Below are positions 7,881 through 22,579 of a DNA stretch of 23,710 nt, in pieces. Made by a program: the position numbers and the translations under genes. Positions within the stretch are counted from its first letter, which is position 1. Each line of letters opens with the position of its first letter. Source of the stretch: a virus; IMG/VR virus record IMGVR_UViG_3300009176_000075, positions 1-23,710 of that record. One strand, written 5' to 3'. The notes below the pieces were generated by a model. The model was given only the letters and a program-made list of their open reading frames with translations, did not search any database and had not been told where the DNA came from.

Positions 7881-9449
7881 ATGGACAGGATTCCGCTCTA
7901 TCTCGCCGCGCTGATCGTCGCCATTGCCAGCACCCCGCTCAACATCTTCGACGTGCACGCCCGGAACGTCGGGATCGGGAAATCCGAACCGTGGCGCACG
8001 AAGCTCTCGACGTGCCTGACGGCGCCGACGCGGGCGCTCGCCAGCATCGCCGCATTTCTGCGACACAGCGTCTGGGGTGAGCATCGACAGCTTGTCACCG
8101 CGTCGGTGATTCTCCTCGTGCTGCTGCTGATGCCGCACACGTCGCAGGCGCACGGCCTGGTGATGGTCGGCATGGCGGGCACACTGAATCTCGCGCAGCT
8201 CGAGACCGATGTGAAGGCGAAGCAGACCGCGGCGAAGGACCTGCTCGAGGCCACCATGCGCGCGTGCGCCGATCACGTCGTCGCGAAGGCCACCGACACC
8301 ACCCCCGAGATCAAGGGCCGGCTGATGACCGCCGACGAGAAAGCCGCCATCCAGGCCATCCTCGACGAGGGCAAGGCCCTCAAAGCGAAGATCGACGGCC
8401 TCCAGGGCGACGCCAACTTCCAGGCCGAGATCGCGCGCCTCACCGCCGGGATGCAGGCGGCCGCGCACGAGGGCAACCGTGCCCGCGAACGGCGCTCGAT
8501 CGGGCAACAGTTCATCGCGGATCCGGCGTACCGCGCGTGGGTCAAGGGCGGCCAGCACAAGCGCTCGGGCTCGTTGTCGCCCGGCGTCGAGATCATGGGC
8601 GCGACCTTGACCGAAGACGCGGCCTCCGGCGGGGACCTGATCATCCCCGACACGCGGCCGGGCGTCATCCCGCTGCTCTTCAAGCGCCTCGTCGTGGCGG
8701 ATCTCATCGCGCCCGGCACGACCGACGGCAACCTGATCCAGTTCATGAAGGAAACGACCTTCACGAACGCGGCCGACGCGGTCGCCGAGGGCGGCCTCAA
8801 GCCCGAGTCGACGTTGATCTTCGATGCGGCGACCGCGGCCGTCCGCAAGATCGCGCACTGGATCCCGGTCACCGAAGAGATGCTCGAGGACTTCAGCCAG
8901 ACCGCCTCGATCATCGACGCTCGGCTGAAGCTGGGCCTCGACCTCAAGGAAGAGGACGAGCTCCTGAACGGCTCCGGCGTGGCGCCGCACATCCTCGGCC
9001 TCATGACGCTGCCCGGGCTCACCGCGGCGCAGGCGCGCGGGGCGGACAGCAATATGGACGCGATCTTCAAGCAGATGACCACGATCGCGACCACCGTGTT
9101 CGTGCTGGTGGACGGCGTCGTGATCAACCCCGCGAACTGGCAGGCGATCCAGCTCCTGAAGAACGCGGCCGGCAACTACATGGGCAGCGGCCCGTGGGCG
9201 GCCGCGCAGACACCGATCCTGTGGGGCGTGCCCGCGGCCGTCACGCCGTCGATCGTCGCCAACACCGCGCTCGTCGGCGCGTTCCGATCCTGTGCGCAGA
9301 TCTTCCGCAAGGGCGGGGACCGCGTCGAGAGCTCGAACAGCCACGCGAGCTTCTTCGTGAACAACCTCGTCGCGATCCGGGCCGAACGTCGACTCGCGAT
9401 GGCGGCGTACCGCGAAGCGGCCTTCGGGAAGGTCACCGGGCTCAACTAG
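7881..9449 (+). CDS. major capsid protein, HK97 fold, with hydrophobic N-terminal extension
   Basis: The frame encodes 522 residues. From about residue 98 it is a standard HK97-type capsid precursor. A helical delta/scaffold domain (starting MAGTLNLAQLETDVKAKQ and including DEKAAIQAILDEGKALKAKI) is followed by the shell domain with TLTEDAASGGDLIIPD, AHWIPVTEEMLED and NPANWQAIQLLKNAAG. The first 97 residues are atypical. They contain two hydrophobic segments (about residues 5-23 and 70-84), the second followed by HTSQAHG, resembling a signal-peptide cleavage region. Alternative in-frame starts at ATG 8163 (428 aa) or 8172 (425 aa) would give a normal capsid protein, but neither has a good Shine-Dalgarno. 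GC-rich third positions suggest the extension is genuinely coding. Confidence 0.9.
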   Translation: MDRIPLYLAALIVAIASTPLNIFDVHARNVGIGKSEPWRTKLSTCLTAPTRALASIAAFLRHSVWGEHRQLVTASVILLVLLLMPHTSQAHGLVMVGMAGTLNLAQLETDVKAKQTAAKDLLEATMRACADHVVAKATDTTPEIKGRLMTADEKAAIQAILDEGKALKAKIDGLQGDANFQAEIARLTAGMQAAAHEGNRARERRSIGQQFIADPAYRAWVKGGQHKRSGSLSPGVEIMGATLTEDAASGGDLIIPDTRPGVIPLLFKRLVVADLIAPGTTDGNLIQFMKETTFTNAADAVAEGGLKPESTLIFDAATAAVRKIAHWIPVTEEMLEDFSQTASIIDARLKLGLDLKEEDELLNGSGVAPHILGLMTLPGLTAAQARGADSNMDAIFKQMTTIATTVFVLVDGVVINPANWQAIQLLKNAAGNYMGSGPWAAAQTPILWGVPAAVTPSIVANTALVGAFRSCAQIFRKGGDRVESSNSHASFFVNNLVAIRAERRLAMAAYREAAFGKVTGLN

Positions 9450-13539: not shown

Positions 13540-13956
13540 ATGGCAGCAGAAGATCGACTCCACGGCAGCGGCGGCGAGGTGCAGATGGATCCGCTCGGCG
13601 GCTCCGCGCTCGTGACCGTCGCCTCGCTCAACGCCTGGGACCTGGACATGGCGAAGGACCAGGCCAAGGTGACGTGTTTCCGGGATACGAACCAGGTGTA
13701 CGTCGAAGGCCTCCCGGACATCAAAGGCTCGTACAAGGGCGTCTATGACCCGGCCGACGGGCTGGTGATCTTCGACGTGATCTTCGGCACCGTGAAGCCG
13801 ACGCTGCGGTTGCTGCCGTCGTACCTCACGCCGCTCGTGGGGTTCGGGGGCAAGGCCAACATCAGCGGGAAGATCTCGGTCGACGCGAACGGCGCGATCA
13901 CGATCGGCGGCGGGATCACCGCGGCTGGCCCGTGGACGTTGCCGTCGGCGGCGTAG
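13540..13956 (+). CDS. tail tube (major tail) protein-like
   Basis: This 138-residue protein has AGAAGG nine bases before the ATG. The N-terminus (MAAEDRLHGSGGEVQMDP) leads into LNAWDLDMAKDQAKVTCF and then VEGLPDIKGSYKGVYDP, a pattern shared with siphovirus tail tube proteins. Two further strands (LVIFDVIFGTVKPTLRLLPS and ANISGKISVDANGAITIGGG) complete a small beta barrel. Such a protein would polymerise as hexamer rings around the tape measure. The gene order (tube, small protein, frameshifted chaperones, tape measure) supports the assignment. Confidence 0.75.
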   Translation: MAAEDRLHGSGGEVQMDPLGGSALVTVASLNAWDLDMAKDQAKVTCFRDTNQVYVEGLPDIKGSYKGVYDPADGLVIFDVIFGTVKPTLRLLPSYLTPLVGFGGKANISGKISVDANGAITIGGGITAAGPWTLPSAA

Positions 13957-13975: not shown

Positions 13976-14263
13976 ATGCTGAGTGGCATTGTCGGCCTCA
14001 TCAAATGGGGCACGCCACCGGCCTGGTACACCTGCGCGCAGATTGAGGGCTATACCGTCACGCGCAACAAAGCCGGGACGGTGTGGTCGCTCACCGCCAC
14101 GGTCGTCTTGTCGGACGCGTTCAAGATGGCCCAGACGCCGCTGACCTTCGTCGCGAAACATGCGAAAGGGGAGTGGCGCTTTCCGATCGTCTCGCACGAG
14201 CTGCGGCGGGACACCTCGCAACTGACCGCGCGGCTCGGGCCGCCCAAGCAGGAGAAGACGTAA
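13976..14263 (+). CDS. small hypothetical tail-module protein
   Basis: This 95-residue protein lies between the tail tube and chaperone genes. It starts MLSGIVGLIKWGTPPAW, with a short hydrophobic N-terminus, followed by several strands (IEGYTVTRNKAG, WSLTATVVLSDAF) and WRFPIVSHELRRD near the end. It is probably soluble. I recognise no family. Its stop is directly followed by the next ATG with no spacer, so it is likely translated together with the chaperone gene. Confidence 0.6.
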   Translation: MLSGIVGLIKWGTPPAWYTCAQIEGYTVTRNKAGTVWSLTATVVLSDAFKMAQTPLTFVAKHAKGEWRFPIVSHELRRDTSQLTARLGPPKQEKT

Positions 14264-14683
14264 ATGCCGCGGTGCCGTGTCGTCGTTCCTGAAACCGTGC
14301 GGCTGCCGTTGTCGGACGGGGATTTTCTCGATGTCTGGAAAGAACTGAACGCTGGGCAGTATCTCGATTTCATCGTGGCGATGACGGATCGGCGGCCCTT
14401 TGCGAAGGTCCAGGCGTATGTGCTCGCGTGGTCGTTCGTGGGCGTCGACGGGACGCCGGTACCGTGGGACCCCGACACGGACGCCGCGACGCGCCTTGGC
14501 ACCTTGCGGTCGCTCGACAAAGGCACGATGCGCGAAATGATCGCCGCGCTCGACCGGCACGAGGCGGCGGAAGAGGCGGCCCTCGCGGAAAAAAAAAGGA
14601 CCCCGCCCGTCGCGCCCGCATCGACCGGGACATCCACATCGCCCGACGCTGCGGCTGGACCCTTGAGTACGTCCGCGCTCTAA
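14264..14683 (+). CDS. tail assembly chaperone, short form (lambda G-like)
   Basis: This 139-residue zero-frame product would bind the tape measure protein and guide tail tube assembly. Residues 1-70 contain MPRCRVVVPETVRLPLSDGD, WKELNAGQYLDFIVAM and a charged helix; the later helix MREMIAALDRHEAAEEAALAEK precedes the frameshift site. Without frameshifting, translation continues into a Pro/Thr/Ser-rich tail ending at 14683. Location immediately before the tape measure gene and the slippery run support the call. Confidence 0.8.
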   Translation: MPRCRVVVPETVRLPLSDGDFLDVWKELNAGQYLDFIVAMTDRRPFAKVQAYVLAWSFVGVDGTPVPWDPDTDAATRLGTLRSLDKGTMREMIAALDRHEAAEEAALAEKKRTPPVAPASTGTSTSPDAAAGPLSTSAL

Positions 14684-14742: not shown

Positions 14743-16914
14743 ATGGCCATCTCGGGCGCATTCGCGGCGGACTTCACCAGTTTCAACGCGGCCGTCGACG
14801 GCGCCGTGGTCAAGCTCGCCTCGATGGAGAGCGGCAGCGAGAAGGTGGCCGGACGGCTGTCGCGCATGACTGAGAGCTTCTCGGGGCGGAAGATCATCCA
14901 AGAAGCCAAACTCATGGCGGAGGTGTTCGAGCGCGCCGGCAATGGGGCGGGGCTGACGGCGGCGGAACTGCAACGCATGGGTGCGGTCGGCGCGGAGGCG
15001 ATGGCCAAGCTCCAGGCCACTGGGGCGCCGGTTCCCCCAGGCATCGCCAGGATCGCGGCCGAAGCGCGAACGACAGGCGGCGAACTCGAGCACATGCGCG
15101 GCATCGCGGCCTCGCTGGCGGGCGCGTTCGGCGTCTCGTTTTCGCTCGGCGCGGTCGTGGGCTTCGGGAAAGAACTCCTCGCCACGGCCGGTCATCTCGT
15201 CAAAGTCTCCAACCAGACCGGTATTTTCATCAGCGACGTGCAGCGTCTGGAATATGTGGCGGGGCAAACCGGCGGTTCCCTCGACACCCTCACCGGCGCC
15301 ATCGGGAAGATGCAGCTGAACCTAAATGACCCGAAGGCACAACAAGCGTTCCGCGATCTGAATATCAACTTTGCGGAACTCAGCGCAAAGAACCCGTATC
15401 AGCAGTTTGAAATGATCGCCACGGCGGTGGGCACGATCGAGAGCCCCGTGAGGCAAGCCGAGGCCGCCGTCGCAATTTTCGGGCGGACGGGGCTCGAGAT
15501 TCTCCCGCAGTTGAAAGCGAAATTCAAAGAACTGGCATCCGAGGCGACGACCTCCGGGGATGCGCAAGTGCGGGCCGTGAATGCGGCGGGGGACGCGCTC
15601 GACCGCCAATGGACGCGGATGAAGAACCAGGCCCTCGGGGGCGCCGGCGGCTTCGCGCAGTTGGTCGAGAAGATGGGACTCGCCGATGCGCTGATGGCCA
15701 CGCTCAATCCGTCCCGTTATGCGGCCGAGATGGGGAAGATCCAGGTCGAGGTCGATGCGGCGGCAGCGGCGGAAGCGGACCTCGCGGCGGTCCAGGGTGG
15801 AGTGGCCGTCGACGCGCAGGACACGTACCGCGCGCATCTCGACGAAGTCCGCGGCGCCGTCGACGCGCTCTCGGTCAGTGACAAAGCGATGATCAAGGAC
15901 GCCCTCGCGTTGGGCGAGAGCACCACCGAGATCGCCGGCGGGATGAACCTGGCCGCGGGCGCGGTGGAAGTCTACGCCACGGCGTTACAGAAAGCCGAGG
16001 CAGCGACCAAACAAGCCGCGGAGAAAGAGAAGACGCTCGTCGGCCAGCAACTCCTCGAACTCACAAAGATCAAAGAGGACGCCCGCGTCCTTGAGGCGGC
16101 GCAGACCGGGACCGCCGACGAGCGGGCGATCGTCGCCATCAAGGCACGGTACGCCAAGCAGATCGCCGCGTTGGAAGAGAGCGGCAAAATCACCGCGGCG
16201 ATCCGGCAGGAGTTGGCGAGAAACGAGCTGAAGGAGATCGACGACGTCGGCGCGCTGATGCAACAGAAGAATCAGAACTCCATCAGCGCGATGCGCGCCC
16301 GGGCTGACCACGAGCGCCAGGCGTACATGGACATGGCGAACTCGGGGGACTTTTACCGGGACGAACTCGACAAGCAGCTTGCGCTCGTGAAGTCACTGGA
16401 AGCCGCGGCCCGCGGGATGGGCGCGGCGACCGTCAAGGCGTACGCCGAGATGGCGGAGGCGGCCGAGAGTGCCTTCGACCGGACCAACCGCGCGCGCATG
16501 TCCTCAGAGAATACGACGAGCGCCTACAGCAATCAGAAGGAGATGGATAAAGCGACGAAGGGCATGACGACTTTCGACCGAACCAACTACGAACGGCAGC
16601 ACGGCGAGCGAGGCAAAGCGACCGGCGACAACGACTCGTGGATCTCGACGTTCGAGACCGCCGCCGACGTGTGGGCGGCGCACGGACTGACCGGCCCGGT
16701 GCGCGACGCCCTCCTGAAAGCGATCGCAGAGCGCGAGTCGAAGCAAACCGTCGCCGCCACCATCGACGGCCGCAGCGCCGAGACCACGGTCGTCAATGTC
16801 GACATGAAGGTGAGCGGCGTCCTCGACCCTCGAACGATTCAGGAATTGTCGGCGGGCGTCAGCGCCTACGTCATGCGCAGTCTCAAGGTCTCTCGCCAAA
16901 TGGGCACGGCATGA
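14743..16914 (+). CDS. tape measure protein
   Basis: This 723-residue, mostly helical protein would occupy the tail lumen and set tail length. It begins immediately after the chaperone stop. Residues about 120-155 hold a hydrophobic segment (IAASLAGAFGVSFSLGAVVG), a usual tape measure feature. QTGIFISDVQRLEYVAGQTG resembles conserved N-terminal segments in many tape measures. Long Ala/Glu/Lys-rich coiled-coil-like stretches occupy roughly residues 340-600. The C-terminal part includes DMKVSGVLDPRTIQELSAGV. It is short for the family. At about 1.5 angstroms per residue it would correspond to a tail near 100 nm. Confidence 0.9.
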   Translation: MAISGAFAADFTSFNAAVDGAVVKLASMESGSEKVAGRLSRMTESFSGRKIIQEAKLMAEVFERAGNGAGLTAAELQRMGAVGAEAMAKLQATGAPVPPGIARIAAEARTTGGELEHMRGIAASLAGAFGVSFSLGAVVGFGKELLATAGHLVKVSNQTGIFISDVQRLEYVAGQTGGSLDTLTGAIGKMQLNLNDPKAQQAFRDLNINFAELSAKNPYQQFEMIATAVGTIESPVRQAEAAVAIFGRTGLEILPQLKAKFKELASEATTSGDAQVRAVNAAGDALDRQWTRMKNQALGGAGGFAQLVEKMGLADALMATLNPSRYAAEMGKIQVEVDAAAAAEADLAAVQGGVAVDAQDTYRAHLDEVRGAVDALSVSDKAMIKDALALGESTTEIAGGMNLAAGAVEVYATALQKAEAATKQAAEKEKTLVGQQLLELTKIKEDARVLEAAQTGTADERAIVAIKARYAKQIAALEESGKITAAIRQELARNELKEIDDVGALMQQKNQNSISAMRARADHERQAYMDMANSGDFYRDELDKQLALVKSLEAAARGMGAATVKAYAEMAEAAESAFDRTNRARMSSENTTSAYSNQKEMDKATKGMTTFDRTNYERQHGERGKATGDNDSWISTFETAADVWAAHGLTGPVRDALLKAIAERESKQTVAATIDGRSAETTVVNVDMKVSGVLDPRTIQELSAGVSAYVMRSLKVSRQMGTA

Positions 16915-16918
16915 CGCC

Positions 16919-19900
16919 ATGCCGCTGACCTGGACGCAGCAGTCCACCCCCACCACCTACAACAACGTCTGGCGCGATCTGTGTTACGCGCCGGGGTTCG
17001 GTCTGTTCGTGGCGGTCGGATCGCAGAACAGCGGGTCGGACGCGCACCGCGTGATGACGTCGCCGGACGGCGTGACGTGGACGATGCGCGCCGCGGCGTC
17101 GGCGACGTCCTGGCGCGCCGTGGCGTGGGCGCCGACCTTGGGCACCTCGGGCCGACTCGTCGCGGTCGGGGCCTCGGCGGTGATGACGTCGGACGACGGC
17201 GGCGTGACCTGGACGTCGCGCACGGCCTCGGAAGCGAATCTCTGGTACGACGTCGCGTGGGCGCCGGCGTTGACGCTGTTCGTCGCGGTCGCGGCCGCCG
17301 GGACCCATCGCGTCATGACGTCGCCGGACGGGGTCACCTGGACGAATCGGACCGCCGCGGCCGCGCGCGCGTGGGAAAGCGTGGTCTGGGCCGAGGCCCT
17401 GGGGCTCTTCGTCGCCGCCTCGGTGACGGGCGGGCACGCGATGACCTCGGCGGACGGCACGAGTTGGACCGAACAGACCGCCGTCTTTGGCGCGCAGAGC
17501 GTCACGGAGCGAGGCCTCGCCTGGTCCGAGGATCTCGGCCGACTCGTCGCGATCCAGCAGAACAACGACGATCCGATCTGGACGAGCGACACTGGCACCG
17601 CGTGGACACAGCGCACGGTCCCGACGACCGGCGGCAGCCGTCCCGTCTGGAGCGGCGCGGCGTGGGGGGCGGGGCAGTGCGTCGTCGTCGCCGCGGCCGG
17701 GGCGACCAACACCAACCAGATCGCGGTCTCCGCGGACGGGGTGACGTGGACGGAATCGGATCCCGCCGTCGCCACCGTCGAACCGTGGCATCAAGTCGCC
17801 TGGGGTGCCGACCGGTTCGTCGCACTCGCGAACAACACGAACAACGACGGCCTCTCCGTGATGACCTCGCCGGCGCCGGCGCTGACGGTCACGGCGATCG
17901 ATCCCGCCGACGGGCTGTCCCTCGGCGGCACCGCGGTCACGATCACGGGCACCGGCTTCGTCGACGGGGCGGAAGTGAATTTCGACCATCTCGCGGCGAC
18001 CGACGTCGTCGTGGTCAGCCCGACGTCCATCACCTGCGTCACGCCCGCGCACGTCGCCGGCGTCGTCGATGTCACCGTCACGCTCCTGCCGAGCGGCGGC
18101 TACGGGACGCTCGTCGACGCCTTCGAGTACTTGGCGTACGGGATCGCGAGCGTCACGCCGGACCACGGGCCGGTGACGGGCGACACGGCGGTCACGATCG
18201 CGGGGCTCGGGTTCACGGTCGACGCCGACATTACTTTCGGCGGGATCGCGGCCACCGACATCGTCTTCGTTGACGAGACCGCATACACCTGCGTCACCCC
18301 CGCGCACACCGTCGGGCCGGTGACGGTCGTCGTGGGCGACAGCGAGTTCGCCGAAGCGTTCACGTTCGAAGCGCTCGACGTGGAGGGGCCCGCGCTGCCG
18401 GAGGACGACGAGACGTGGACGGGGCTGGTGCGGACCGACCCGGCGCCGAGCCTGTCCTCGAGCCATCACGGTATCAGCACGCTGACGTTTACCACCCGCG
18501 AATCCGGCGAGGTGCCGGCGGGCCAGATCATCGGGTTGGACTTCGGCGACGGGCCGGTGTTTCGCGGACCCGTCGTGTCGACGGACCTCACGTTCGTCCT
18601 CACGGATGCCGAACTGGCGCAGCAGCATCACGCGGTCGATTTCGCGTGGGACCTGAACGCCATTCGGCCGTTCGGCACCTGGACCGACGTGTCGGTCTCG
18701 ACGATCGTCGCCGAGATGCTGGCTGAGTCTGCGCCCGACTTCACCGGCAGCGGCGTCGCGGCCGGCTTACCCGAGGTCACGATCCTCTTCGACGGGTCCG
18801 CCCAATTCACCGAGTGCCTGACCGCGCTGTGTGAGGCGATGGGCGGTGGCGCGTTCTATCTCGACGAGCGGGATCTCCATCTCTTCCAGGATCCCGAAGC
18901 GGGGACCGACCCCGACGTCATCACCGCCGACACGGCGAGTTTCCTGCACGACGCGCCGGTCACCCTGACCGAGGACCTCACGCAACTGCGCACCCGCATC
19001 CATGGGAAAGGGGCGGGCTCGTCGACGCGCGCGCTCGCCTTGGCCGGCGATACCACCCTCGAAGTCGGCAGCCTGGAGAACTTTGAGTCCGCCGGCGGCT
19101 CCGTGCTCGTCGGCTCGCAAGTCGTGACGTACACCGGCACGGCGAAAGTCGCGGAGGCGGCTCGACGCGCGGCGACGGCGCCGACCGGACCCGGCGGCGG
19201 GATGACGCTGTTGCCGAGCCTGACGGGCAGCGCGCCGTACGACAACGGCAATATCCGCAACCTCGTCGCCTACAAGCTGTCGTTCGTGGATGAACGCGGC
19301 CGCGAATCGGCGCTGAGTGAGGCCCAGGCGATTACCTGGTCCCCGCAGGTCGCGCCGGTTGGCGGGGGCGCCGCCGTTGCCACGACCGGCGGGTTCATGG
19401 ACTTCGGCCACTACAGCTATGTGATCTCCTACGCGACCGCGGAGGGGGAGACCAACGGCGCCGTCTGGATGTCGCCGTACGGCATCACGGGAAACGCGAA
19501 CGGGGCCGTCGTCTTTACGGACCTCGTCACGAATGACGACCCGCGCGTGCTGACGATCCGGATCTACCGGACGAAGCGCGGGGCTTTCTCGCCCTACTAT
19601 CTCGTCGGCGAGATCCCCAACACCCTACCGAACACGTTCACCGACGTCTTGAACGACGCGTCGCTGACGACTCCGAATTTCAATATCGCGCCGCGGACGA
19701 TCAACACGACCGGCGGCACGGTGTACCTCTCGAACATTCCGCCGTGTCCCGATCCGGTCGCCGGCGGCGCGGTCCAACCCAGTTTCGGCCCGGTCGCCGG
19801 CGGCACGTCGATCACGGTCACCGGGCGCGGCTTCATCGCCGGCCTGAACGTGTACGTCGGCGGCACGCTCGCGACCGCGATCACCTTTATCGACGAGACG

Positions 19901-22579
19901 CAGTACACCTGTACCGTGCCCGCGGGCACCGGCATTGTCGACGTGACGGTCGGCACGGCGGGAGACGAGGCGAGCTATCTCCGGGTGCCGGACGCGTACG
20001 CCTACACCGACACCGACGTGCGCGCGAAGCGGATCTATCGCGCGGAATACGACGCGGTGTTCGGGCACTGGCGCAACCTCTTTACCGCGATTGCCACCCT
20101 GACGCCCAGCGAGACCACGCACGTCGACGACGCGGCGACGCAGCCCCCCGGGCTCAACGATTCGCCCCTCACCCTCACGGAGGACGCCGGGACGCCGGTC
20201 ACGGACGCGACCGGAAAAACGCCACCGACGTGGCACTACCTGCTGACCGGGATCCCCGGCAGCGGTGAGGGGGCGATCGTGGCGCCCGTCCTCGTGAACA
20301 CGGCCGTCAATGTCTGGATCCAACGCGACGACGTCGAGGCCCAGGCGGCCTTCGCGCTGCGGCACGGCGGCACCGGGGTCCGGGAAGGGCGCGTCACCGA
20401 TACGACCCTCCGGACGGCGGCGCTCATCCGCCGCGTCGAGGCCGAGCTCGCGCTGTGGAAGGACCCGATCCGGACCGTCAAATTCCCCTCGCGCGACCCG
20501 AAGCTCACGGTCGGGGGCACGGTCACGTTCGCGCTGGTCCGACCGCCGATCGCGGGCAGTTTCCTGATTCAAACGGTCGGCGCCTCACTCTCGCCGAACC
20601 TCACCACGGATCCGATTCTGTCGGTGACGGCGTCGAGTGTGCGGTTTACGCTCGAGGATCTGCTCCGGCGCGTCGTGCTGAAGGACGAGGACCGAGGCGG
20701 CGGGGGATCCGGCAGCGGCACCGGCGCGTCGTCGAGCAGCAGCGACGGTCCCGACCCGGCGGTCTGGGGCGATCTCGGCGGCACGCTGAGCGACCAAACC
20801 GATCTCGTCGCGGCCCTCGCCGTGAAGGCCTCGACGACGCACGCGGCGACCCATGCCCTCGCGGGGAGCGATCCGCTGTCGGTCCTCGATCTCGACGGCT
20901 TCCCCGGCGGCACCACAGACTTCCTGCGGGCGGATGGATCGTTTGCGACCCCGGCAGGCGGCGGCGGGGCGTGGTCTATGGCGCGCCTGCTCGCGGGCAA
21001 CAGTGTCGACGGGTCCGCGGACGTCGCCTTCGCGAACAAGTTCCTCGCGCAGGGCGTCGCGGATGCCGGCCTCACGGGCGCGCAATTCCTCGGCGCGCTG
21101 GCGACGGGCATCGTCAAGAACACGACGACGACCGGCGTGCTGTCGATCGCTGTCGCCGGCGACTTCCCGACGCTGAATCAGAGCACGAGCGGCAACGCCT
21201 TGACGGCCACGTTGGCGGTGGCGGCGACCGTGCTCGCCACGCCCCGCGCCATCAACGGCGTCAGCTTCGACGGCTCGGCCCCGATCACCGTCACGGCGGC
21301 GGCCGGCACGCTGACCGGCGCGACGCTCGCGGCGACTGTCCTGGCGTCTTCCTTGACGAGTGTCGGCGTGCTGGCGACCCTCACAGTGACGGCGCCGATC
21401 GCGGGGAGCGTCACGGGGTCGTCCGGGTCGACGACGGGGAATGCCGCGACGGCGACCAGCGCGGGGAAGTGGACCACCGCGCGGAACCTGGCCGGGAACA
21501 GCGTTGATGGCTCGGCGACGGTCGCGTTCGCGAACAAGTTCGTCGTGCAAGGCACCGCGGACGCCGGCCTGTCGGCGGCGCAGTTCCTGGGCGCGCTCGG
21601 CACCGGCATCGTCAAGAACACCACGACGACCGGCGTGCTGTCGATCGCCGTCGCCGGCGACTTCCCGACGCTCAACCAGAACACCACGGGCAGCGCGGCG
21701 AGTCTGAGCGCGACGCTGGTCGCGACCTCCGGCGGGACGGGGCAAAGTGTGTTCGCCGTCGGCGACCTGCTCTATGCGGACACGACGACGACGCTCGCCC
21801 GGCGCGCGGCCGTGGCGGCCGGATCGTATCTCCGGGCGGCCGGCGTCACCACGGCGCCCGTGTGGTCGACGCTGATCCTGCCGAACGCGATCACCGCGAA
21901 CCAGGTGGTGTACGGCTCGGCGACGAACACCTACGGTAGCAGCGCGAGCCTGACGTTTGACGGGACGACCCTCGCGATCGCCGGCAACCTCACGGTCACG
22001 TCGACCGCCGGCCCGGGCCTCGTCATCAGTAAGGGCAACAACCAGCCGGTCGCGTTCCAGGTGCTGGGCACGGCGGGGAATAGCCAATCGCTGAGCATGA
22101 TCGCGGACGTCCTCACCTATACCCAAAATGACGGCCTGACGGTCAACATCTCGATCACGCAATTAGGCGCCGTCACGATCCCGGGCACGCTCGCCGTCGG
22201 GGCCGTGACCGGGAGCAACAAGATCGTCTCGACGCATGCGACGGCCGGCCTCGGCTACGCGACCGGCGCCGGCGGGACCGTCACGCAGATCACGAGCCGG
22301 ACGACGACCATCATCCTCAATAAAGCGACGGGGAAGATCACGCTGTTCTCGGTGTCGCAGGCCGCGGACACCACGGTGGTGTTCACCTTGACCAACTCCG
22401 CGATCGCGGCGACGGACCTCTTGGCGTTCAGCCAGATCGCGGGCGCGATCGGGTCGTACAACATCACGGCCGTGTGTGGGGCCGGCACGGCCCAAGTCAG
22501 TATTCGCAACGTGACGCCGGCGGCGATCAGCGAAGCGCCGGCCTTCCGGTTCGTGGTGATCAAATCGGTCGATGCCTAG
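16919..22579 (+). CDS. giant tail-tip mosaic: propeller, TIG domains, hub-like part and fibre
   Basis: This 1,886-residue protein starts four bases after the tape measure stop. Residues about 5-318 contain seven related repeats starting at W5, W54, W98, W141, W183, W229 and W277. Each carries a WxxVAWAP-LFVAV core and an Asp-box-like S-x-DG-x-T-W, predicting a seven-bladed beta propeller. TIG/IPT domains occupy about 321-404, 405-488 and 951-1025. Between them, roughly 490-760 resembles a tail hub (FRGPVVSTDLTFVLTD, SAQFTECLTALCEAMGGGAF, YLDERDLHLF). A second hub-like or fibronectin-like part spans about 770-1255. A Gly/Ser linker lies near 1260-1280. Residues 1290-1778 are tail-fibre repeats, and 1779-1886 match a common fibre C-terminal domain. 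It probably combines tail hub, carbohydrate or protein binding, and receptor-binding fibre. Domain limits are by eye. Confidence 0.85.
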   Translation: MPLTWTQQSTPTTYNNVWRDLCYAPGFGLFVAVGSQNSGSDAHRVMTSPDGVTWTMRAAASATSWRAVAWAPTLGTSGRLVAVGASAVMTSDDGGVTWTSRTASEANLWYDVAWAPALTLFVAVAAAGTHRVMTSPDGVTWTNRTAAAARAWESVVWAEALGLFVAASVTGGHAMTSADGTSWTEQTAVFGAQSVTERGLAWSEDLGRLVAIQQNNDDPIWTSDTGTAWTQRTVPTTGGSRPVWSGAAWGAGQCVVVAAAGATNTNQIAVSADGVTWTESDPAVATVEPWHQVAWGADRFVALANNTNNDGLSVMTSPAPALTVTAIDPADGLSLGGTAVTITGTGFVDGAEVNFDHLAATDVVVVSPTSITCVTPAHVAGVVDVTVTLLPSGGYGTLVDAFEYLAYGIASVTPDHGPVTGDTAVTIAGLGFTVDADITFGGIAATDIVFVDETAYTCVTPAHTVGPVTVVVGDSEFAEAFTFEALDVEGPALPEDDETWTGLVRTDPAPSLSSSHHGISTLTFTTRESGEVPAGQIIGLDFGDGPVFRGPVVSTDLTFVLTDAELAQQHHAVDFAWDLNAIRPFGTWTDVSVSTIVAEMLAESAPDFTGSGVAAGLPEVTILFDGSAQFTECLTALCEAMGGGAFYLDERDLHLFQDPEAGTDPDVITADTASFLHDAPVTLTEDLTQLRTRIHGKGAGSSTRALALAGDTTLEVGSLENFESAGGSVLVGSQVVTYTGTAKVAEAARRAATAPTGPGGGMTLLPSLTGSAPYDNGNIRNLVAYKLSFVDERGRESALSEAQAITWSPQVAPVGGGAAVATTGGFMDFGHYSYVISYATAEGETNGAVWMSPYGITGNANGAVVFTDLVTNDDPRVLTIRIYRTKRGAFSPYYLVGEIPNTLPNTFTDVLNDASLTTPNFNIAPRTINTTGGTVYLSNIPPCPDPVAGGAVQPSFGPVAGGTSITVTGRGFIAGLNVYVGGTLATAITFIDETQYTCTVPAGTGIVDVTVGTAGDEASYLRVPDAYAYTDTDVRAKRIYRAEYDAVFGHWRNLFTAIATLTPSETTHVDDAATQPPGLNDSPLTLTEDAGTPVTDATGKTPPTWHYLLTGIPGSGEGAIVAPVLVNTAVNVWIQRDDVEAQAAFALRHGGTGVREGRVTDTTLRTAALIRRVEAELALWKDPIRTVKFPSRDPKLTVGGTVTFALVRPPIAGSFLIQTVGASLSPNLTTDPILSVTASSVRFTLEDLLRRVVLKDEDRGGGGSGSGTGASSSSSDGPDPAVWGDLGGTLSDQTDLVAALAVKASTTHAATHALAGSDPLSVLDLDGFPGGTTDFLRADGSFATPAGGGGAWSMARLLAGNSVDGSADVAFANKFLAQGVADAGLTGAQFLGALATGIVKNTTTTGVLSIAVAGDFPTLNQSTSGNALTATLAVAATVLATPRAINGVSFDGSAPITVTAAAGTLTGATLAATVLASSLTSVGVLATLTVTAPIAGSVTGSSGSTTGNAATATSAGKWTTARNLAGNSVDGSATVAFANKFVVQGTADAGLSAAQFLGALGTGIVKNTTTTGVLSIAVAGDFPTLNQNTTGSAASLSATLVATSGGTGQSVFAVGDLLYADTTTTLARRAAVAAGSYLRAAGVTTAPVWSTLILPNAITANQVVYGSATNTYGSSASLTFDGTTLAIAGNLTVTSTAGPGLVISKGNNQPVAFQVLGTAGNSQSLSMIADVLTYTQNDGLTVNISITQLGAVTIPGTLAVGAVTGSNKIVSTHATAGLGYATGAGGTVTQITSRTTTIILNKATGKITLFSVSQAADTTVVFTLTNSAIAATDLLAFSQIAGAIGSYNITAVCGAGTAQVSIRNVTPAAISEAPAFRFVVIKSVDA
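20972..21698 (+). repeat. duplicated fibre module (two copies, 498 bp apart)
   Basis: Two copies of a module of about 75 residues start at W1352 (20972) and W1518 (21470). Both contain LAGNSVDGSA, VAFANKF, AQFLGALxTGIVKNTTTTGV and LSIAVAGDFPTLNQ. The nucleotide sequences are nearly identical over about 70 bases (21112-21181 and 21610-21679), indicating recent duplication or ongoing gene conversion. Confidence 0.8.

Follow-up and report, generated by a model that had tools for sequence, protein, structure and literature searches.

The question raised by this locus is how a siphophage tail tip is organised when propeller, TIG domains, hub and fibre are all encoded in one open reading frame (ORF), and whether such a chain also takes over the function of the distal tail protein (Dit). 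The window, i.e. the whole stretch of DNA analysed here, is a complete viral contig of 23,710 bp that carries siphophage structural genes, with a cassette comprising small and large terminase, portal, head protease, major capsid protein, connectors, major tail protein and tape-measure protein (TMP). The tail-tip ORF (16919-22579) begins 4 bp past the TMP stop, has an ATG start and encodes 1,886 aa without interruption; the contig ends 1.1 kb further downstream. The features under discussion, with the respective evidence in brackets, are the following:

13540..13956, + strand: major tail (tube) protein (phrog_10528)
13976..14263, + strand: small conserved tail gene, 95 aa, candidate tube-hub adaptor (same place in more than 80 loci)
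14264..14683, + strand: probable tape-measure chaperone (position and conservation)
14743..16914, + strand: tape-measure protein, 723 aa (phrog_8125)
16919..17872, + strand: predicted seven-bladed beta-propeller, residues 1-318 (AlphaFold2 model, VIA fold match, repeats in multiples of seven)
17879..18133, + strand: TIG/IPT domain 1, residues 321-405 (Pfam PF01833, custom HMM)
18134..18367, + strand: TIG/IPT domain 2, residues 406-483 (Pfam PF01833, custom HMM)
18386..19153, + strand: N-terminal half of a gp27-like hub, residues ~490-745 (AlphaFold2, VIA, homology to about 100 hub loci)
19154..20230, + strand: hub-splitting insert, residues 746-1104 (low-confidence model, FN3-like by eye; third TIG domain by Pfam and custom HMM)
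20231..20704, + strand: C-terminal half of the gp27-like hub, residues 1105-1262 (AlphaFold2 pLDDT 74-92 over most of it; VIA match spanning both halves)
20705..20785, + strand: Gly/Ser-rich linker, residues 1263-1289 (sequence)
20786..22579, + strand: fused tail fibre, containing duplicated segments of ~75 aa and ending in a phrog_18251 domain (PHROGs, fibres of unrelated phages)

The sequence-only reading had placed a seven-repeat propeller in the first ~320 residues and had named structure prediction as the check on its closure. The repeats start at W18, W65, W109, W152, R198, W244 and W290 with a spacing of 43-47 residues, the fifth lacking the leading Trp that the other six share. Indeed, the AlphaFold2 (AF2) model of residues 1-325, which was based on 55 aligned sequences, is a closed propeller (mean pLDDT 88.5, pTM 0.90) with 28 strands in seven four-stranded blades, the last of which is completed by an N-terminal strand (residues 6-9). 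The nearest solved fold found by VIA is the seven-bladed virginiamycin B lyase (Z 33 over 288 residues, 2.4 Å), and further near folds, likewise seven-bladed, include a designed propeller (Z 29) and, according to Foldseek, Ycf48.

Over 570 stretches of viral contigs encode relatives of this propeller. Among the complete ORFs of the 79 best loci, seven repeats were counted in 58, 14 in eight, 21 in two and another number in eight, so that 68 of the 76 complete ORFs contain 7, 14 or 21 repeats; the loci had been ranked by their similarity to a query of seven repeats, a bias that favours seven itself but does not extend to 14 or 21. Such multiples are expected if seven blades form a folding unit, and they show that the count is not due to chance. 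L119, L120, L110, L171 and L177 encode tail proteins in which two or three propellers of seven repeats follow one another (14 or 21 repeats), and in L113 (5378-9200) three neighbouring genes each contain a propeller of 6-7 detected repeats. A complete seven-repeat propeller ORF of 321 aa is also present on the + strand of Synechococcus phage B23 (L003, 5917-6882); at this place the record shows two small hypothetical genes on the other strand, which is likely a misannotation.

The proximity to virginiamycin B lyase and to GH74 xyloglucanases, which are also among the closest folds, together with a weak match of the propeller profile to a GH33 sialidase repeat (E 0.0055) among solved structures, would be in line with a sialidase- or lyase-like enzyme that trims surface polysaccharide. 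Yet sialidases are six-bladed, whereas seven blades were found here. The conserved columns of the 55 propellers hold structural W/G/S/T and Asp-box residues and show neither an evident catalytic set nor an invariant His/Glu/Arg set, which makes an enzymatic role improbable in our view. The Asp-box (S-x-D-x-G-x-T-W) of the window protein is exact in repeat 2 only (SDDGGVTW), the other repeats being one residue shorter (SPDGVTW).

Behind the propeller, the three TIG/IPT domains of the sequence-only reading were all recovered by Pfam (PF01833; three stretches, E 1.3e-38, 131 bits compared to a gathering cut-off of 20.9), two of them directly following the propeller and the third lying within the hub insert (residues 948-1030). 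The two hub-like segments described earlier proved to have a hub fold, but they are not two hubs. The AF2 model of residues 485-1262 is good only at ~519-745 and ~1105-1245 (core pLDDT 70-94), while the insert of ~360 residues between them is poorly modelled (block means 28-66). If both halves are taken together, they superpose over about 300 residues each time on whole gp27-like hubs, i.e. those of HFTV1 (VIA Z 18.5), Mu gp44 (15.3), Bxb1 (14.1), T4 gp27 (13.1) and T5 pb3 (10.3), from which we conclude that they represent one hub interrupted by the insert. Across both halves, VIA matches to many hubs reached Z 12-18. Despite this clear fold match, a hub sequence search of solved structures gave no convincing match, and the full ORF matched mainly TIG relatives by sequence.

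We collected about 100 hub loci by profile scans; single-protein scans of viral contigs for the hub gave no match, and alignments were required. All hubs of which both halves were seen have an insert of 156-983 aa at the same site. N-terminal extensions of the hubs are mostly 34-320 residues long; in the window protein the match starts after residue 518, and a longer extension was found only in L018. The hub gene abuts or overlaps the TMP gene in about 50 loci, with no gene in between; in some other loci one to three genes are located there, and those inspected by eye look like fibres. Annotation by eye of the genes following the hub in the relatives yielded fibre-like, lysozyme-like or small products, none of them hub-like. 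The order TMP followed by the hub, without a Dit gene, is the norm in this hub family.

These loci bear directly on the Dit question. The canonical order TMP-Dit-Tal was not found in the window, where no gene lies between the TMP gene and the 1,886-aa ORF, and this could suggest that the N-terminal region replaces the missing Dit and that a single chain acts as Dit, hub and fibre, as had been proposed from the sequence. However, the about 50 relatives mentioned above are equally Dit-less, even where no more than 34-50 residues precede the hub core. Propellers were matched by the model of residues 1-325 and gp27-like hubs by that of residues 485-1262, the insert being modelled poorly; the N-terminus is predicted to consist of propeller and TIG domains, with no tail-tube fold. 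In addition, propeller-TIG-TIG is a gene of its own in L194. On the basis of the relatives with minimal extensions we rejected a Dit-replacing role of the N-terminus, and a combined Dit-hub-fibre chain appears highly improbable to us; since hubs with hardly any extension also lack a Dit, we regard the propeller as an add-on. A better candidate for the tube-hub adaptor than the propeller-TIG region is the 95-aa protein. More than 80 loci of the Dit-less group have a gene of ~90 aa that always lies behind the major tail protein gene and ahead of the gene for the probable chaperone (e.g. 13976-14263 in the window, 1695-1976 in L148 and 590-886 in L027); no PHROG match was obtained for 24 members of the family and no convincing match to a solved structure.

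Two further observations concern the ends of the hub proteins. A short repeated motif of the type ARLGxxRLGxFRLG is common in front of the hubs (L026, L042, L059, L062 and L069) and is absent from the window protein, and the hub-position protein of L020 (11384-15799) ends in a long His/Asp-rich repeat tail (HGDxxHxD) that is possibly metal-binding.

In the window protein, the chain continues for 634 residues past the hub, which was unique in our first survey; in the relatives with a complete C-terminus found there, the ORF ends 3-14 residues past the hub. Residues 1390-1886 match tail fibres, and parts of the fibre match those of unrelated phages. That a single polypeptide combines a propeller with TIG domains, a hub and a fibre, as read from the sequence, is supported.

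As the window is a single metagenomic contig, the fusion might in principle have arisen by a sequencing or assembly artefact. We consider the probability of this to be negligible, because the independent contigs L190 (121 kb) and L191 share this domain order along some 1,250 residues; L190 is colinear with the window protein over residues 8-1259 at 40% identity. These two contigs contain the colinear propeller-TIG-TIG-hub series, within the overall order TIG-TIG-propeller-TIG-TIG-hub, and their hubs form a clade with that of the window (support 100/99). L148 encodes a propeller-hub protein without TIG domains directly behind the TMP; the C-terminal continuations of L148, L190 and L191 are all shorter than that of the window protein. 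In L027 (3027-5261) and L208 (8159-10408), which belong to another part of the hub tree, the propeller occupies the usual insert site within the hub. The separate propeller-TIG-TIG gene of L194 (4924-6417), encoded between TMP and hub, is 33% identical to the window protein, and the occurrence of the same unit in fused and in separate form suggests a functional link. Given this recurrence in other viruses, the propeller-hub arrangement is a real and probably host-binding variant of a known part. In the literature available to us, we found no report of a propeller joined to a siphophage hub.

The propeller closest to that of the window (54-56%) belongs to a protein of another phage, L104, that is not a hub; the two propellers pair in the first propeller tree (support 100/100), and other relatives lie in fibre-like proteins, as would be expected of a swappable adhesin. 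A single clade of the hub-fused propellers of window, L148 and L027 was rejected in tree tests (p-AU 8e-5), and one of window, L148, L190 and L191 was marginally rejected (p-AU 0.044), while a clade of window, L190, L191 and L104 is compatible with the data (p-AU 0.83). From these tests we conclude that hubs probably gained or exchanged such propellers more than once.

This mobility also has to be weighed against a purely structural role, in which the propeller would be an assembly module docking baseplate or fibre proteins, and not the host. Propellers generally serve as protein-protein platforms, and the role of the peripheral phiKZ gp131C propeller is unproven (PMC4901313). Most hubs of the family have no propeller, which argues against a fixed docking part, and the occurrence of the same propeller in unrelated tail proteins of many phages, with more than one gain by hubs, fits a host-facing module better. 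We therefore regard a docking module as rather unlikely, and the predicted role of the propeller as a host-binding head as plausible and favoured.

Several known systems resemble the window protein in part. It shares with gp27-like hubs and Tal proteins (T4 gp27, Mu gp44, T5 pb3, phage Tal) the fold of the joined halves, the gene position behind the TMP and the frequent presence of decorating modules, and differs from them by the large N-terminal propeller-TIG extension, since in known Tals, as described, the gp27-like domain comes first and the extensions lie behind it (PMC7291167). Sugar-binding modules have been reported within gp27-like Tal domains, and 'evolved' Dit and Tal proteins have been reviewed (PMC7291167). 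In these, too, a core baseplate protein bears a module of putative binding function, in some cases placed inside the gp27-like part, but the module is a carbohydrate-binding one, whereas that of the window is a seven-bladed propeller of putative binding function. Propellers are known in receptor-binding or baseplate proteins of phages, that of phiKZ gp131C being seven-bladed (PMC4901313); unlike in the window, the propellers of phiKZ gp131C, phi11 gp45 and PRD1 P2 lie outside the hub chain, and those of phi11 and PRD1 are five-bladed. In the RcGTA megatron (Rcc01698), adhesin-like domains are followed by a hub-like central domain and a fibre-binding domain (PMC7296036), but the domains are different ones and distal tail protein and hub protein are separate. 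Jersey (Guernseyvirinae) gp32 is a hub protein that carries a further domain at its N-terminus (PMC13243795), which in contrast to the propeller is small, tethered and without known fold, and the L- and J-like parts are located on two chains.

Taken together, our main reading, to which we assign a probability of roughly 70%, is that the 1,886-aa protein is a gp27/Tal-type siphophage hub enlarged by modules, with propeller and fibre binding the host and triggering hub opening. We read it as a decorated hub of the 'evolved Tal' type with the propeller as a swappable, putatively host-binding adhesin; domain order, propeller fold, hub fold and recurrence rest on sequence and models. According to this model, the two hub halves fold together, and a trimer, as in gp27-like hubs generally, would close the tail tube under the TMP. 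The two TIG domains of each chain may form a stalk in front of the hub with the propeller as its head, so that each virion would carry three propeller heads around the hub, and each chain would continue behind the hub into a fused fibre that is likewise trimeric. A sugar or protein of the host surface is the most likely ligand of the propeller, and binding by propeller and fibre may orient the tip and trigger hub opening.

The decorations known for hubs would hence now include seven-bladed propellers, located before or inside the hub, and the several contexts (N-terminal fusion with or without TIG domains, insertion, separate gene) provide a comparison set for the gain and exchange of host-binding modules by hubs. 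The loci also point to a siphophage tail type that is widespread and has no recognisable Dit; the small conserved gene is the candidate replacement. More tentatively, and below even odds, the hub of this Dit-less type may dock on the tube via the 95-aa protein, with host range set by a propeller that is swapped among hubs, fibres and separate genes, and with the slot before or inside the hub as the site of adhesin exchange.

Regarding the remainder of the contig and the host, the large terminase of the window was not found in L190, L191, L148 and L194, a result of little weight given that several of these are fragments, and a prophage search for the hub with one motif pattern in 84,980 bacterial and archaeal genomes gave no match. 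Relatives of the major capsid protein (35-38%) were found only in sphingomonads, which is a weak guide to the host. The capsid ORF (7881-9449) has ~100 extra N-terminal residues compared to most of its relatives, whose matches begin at residue ~102; translation probably starts further downstream.
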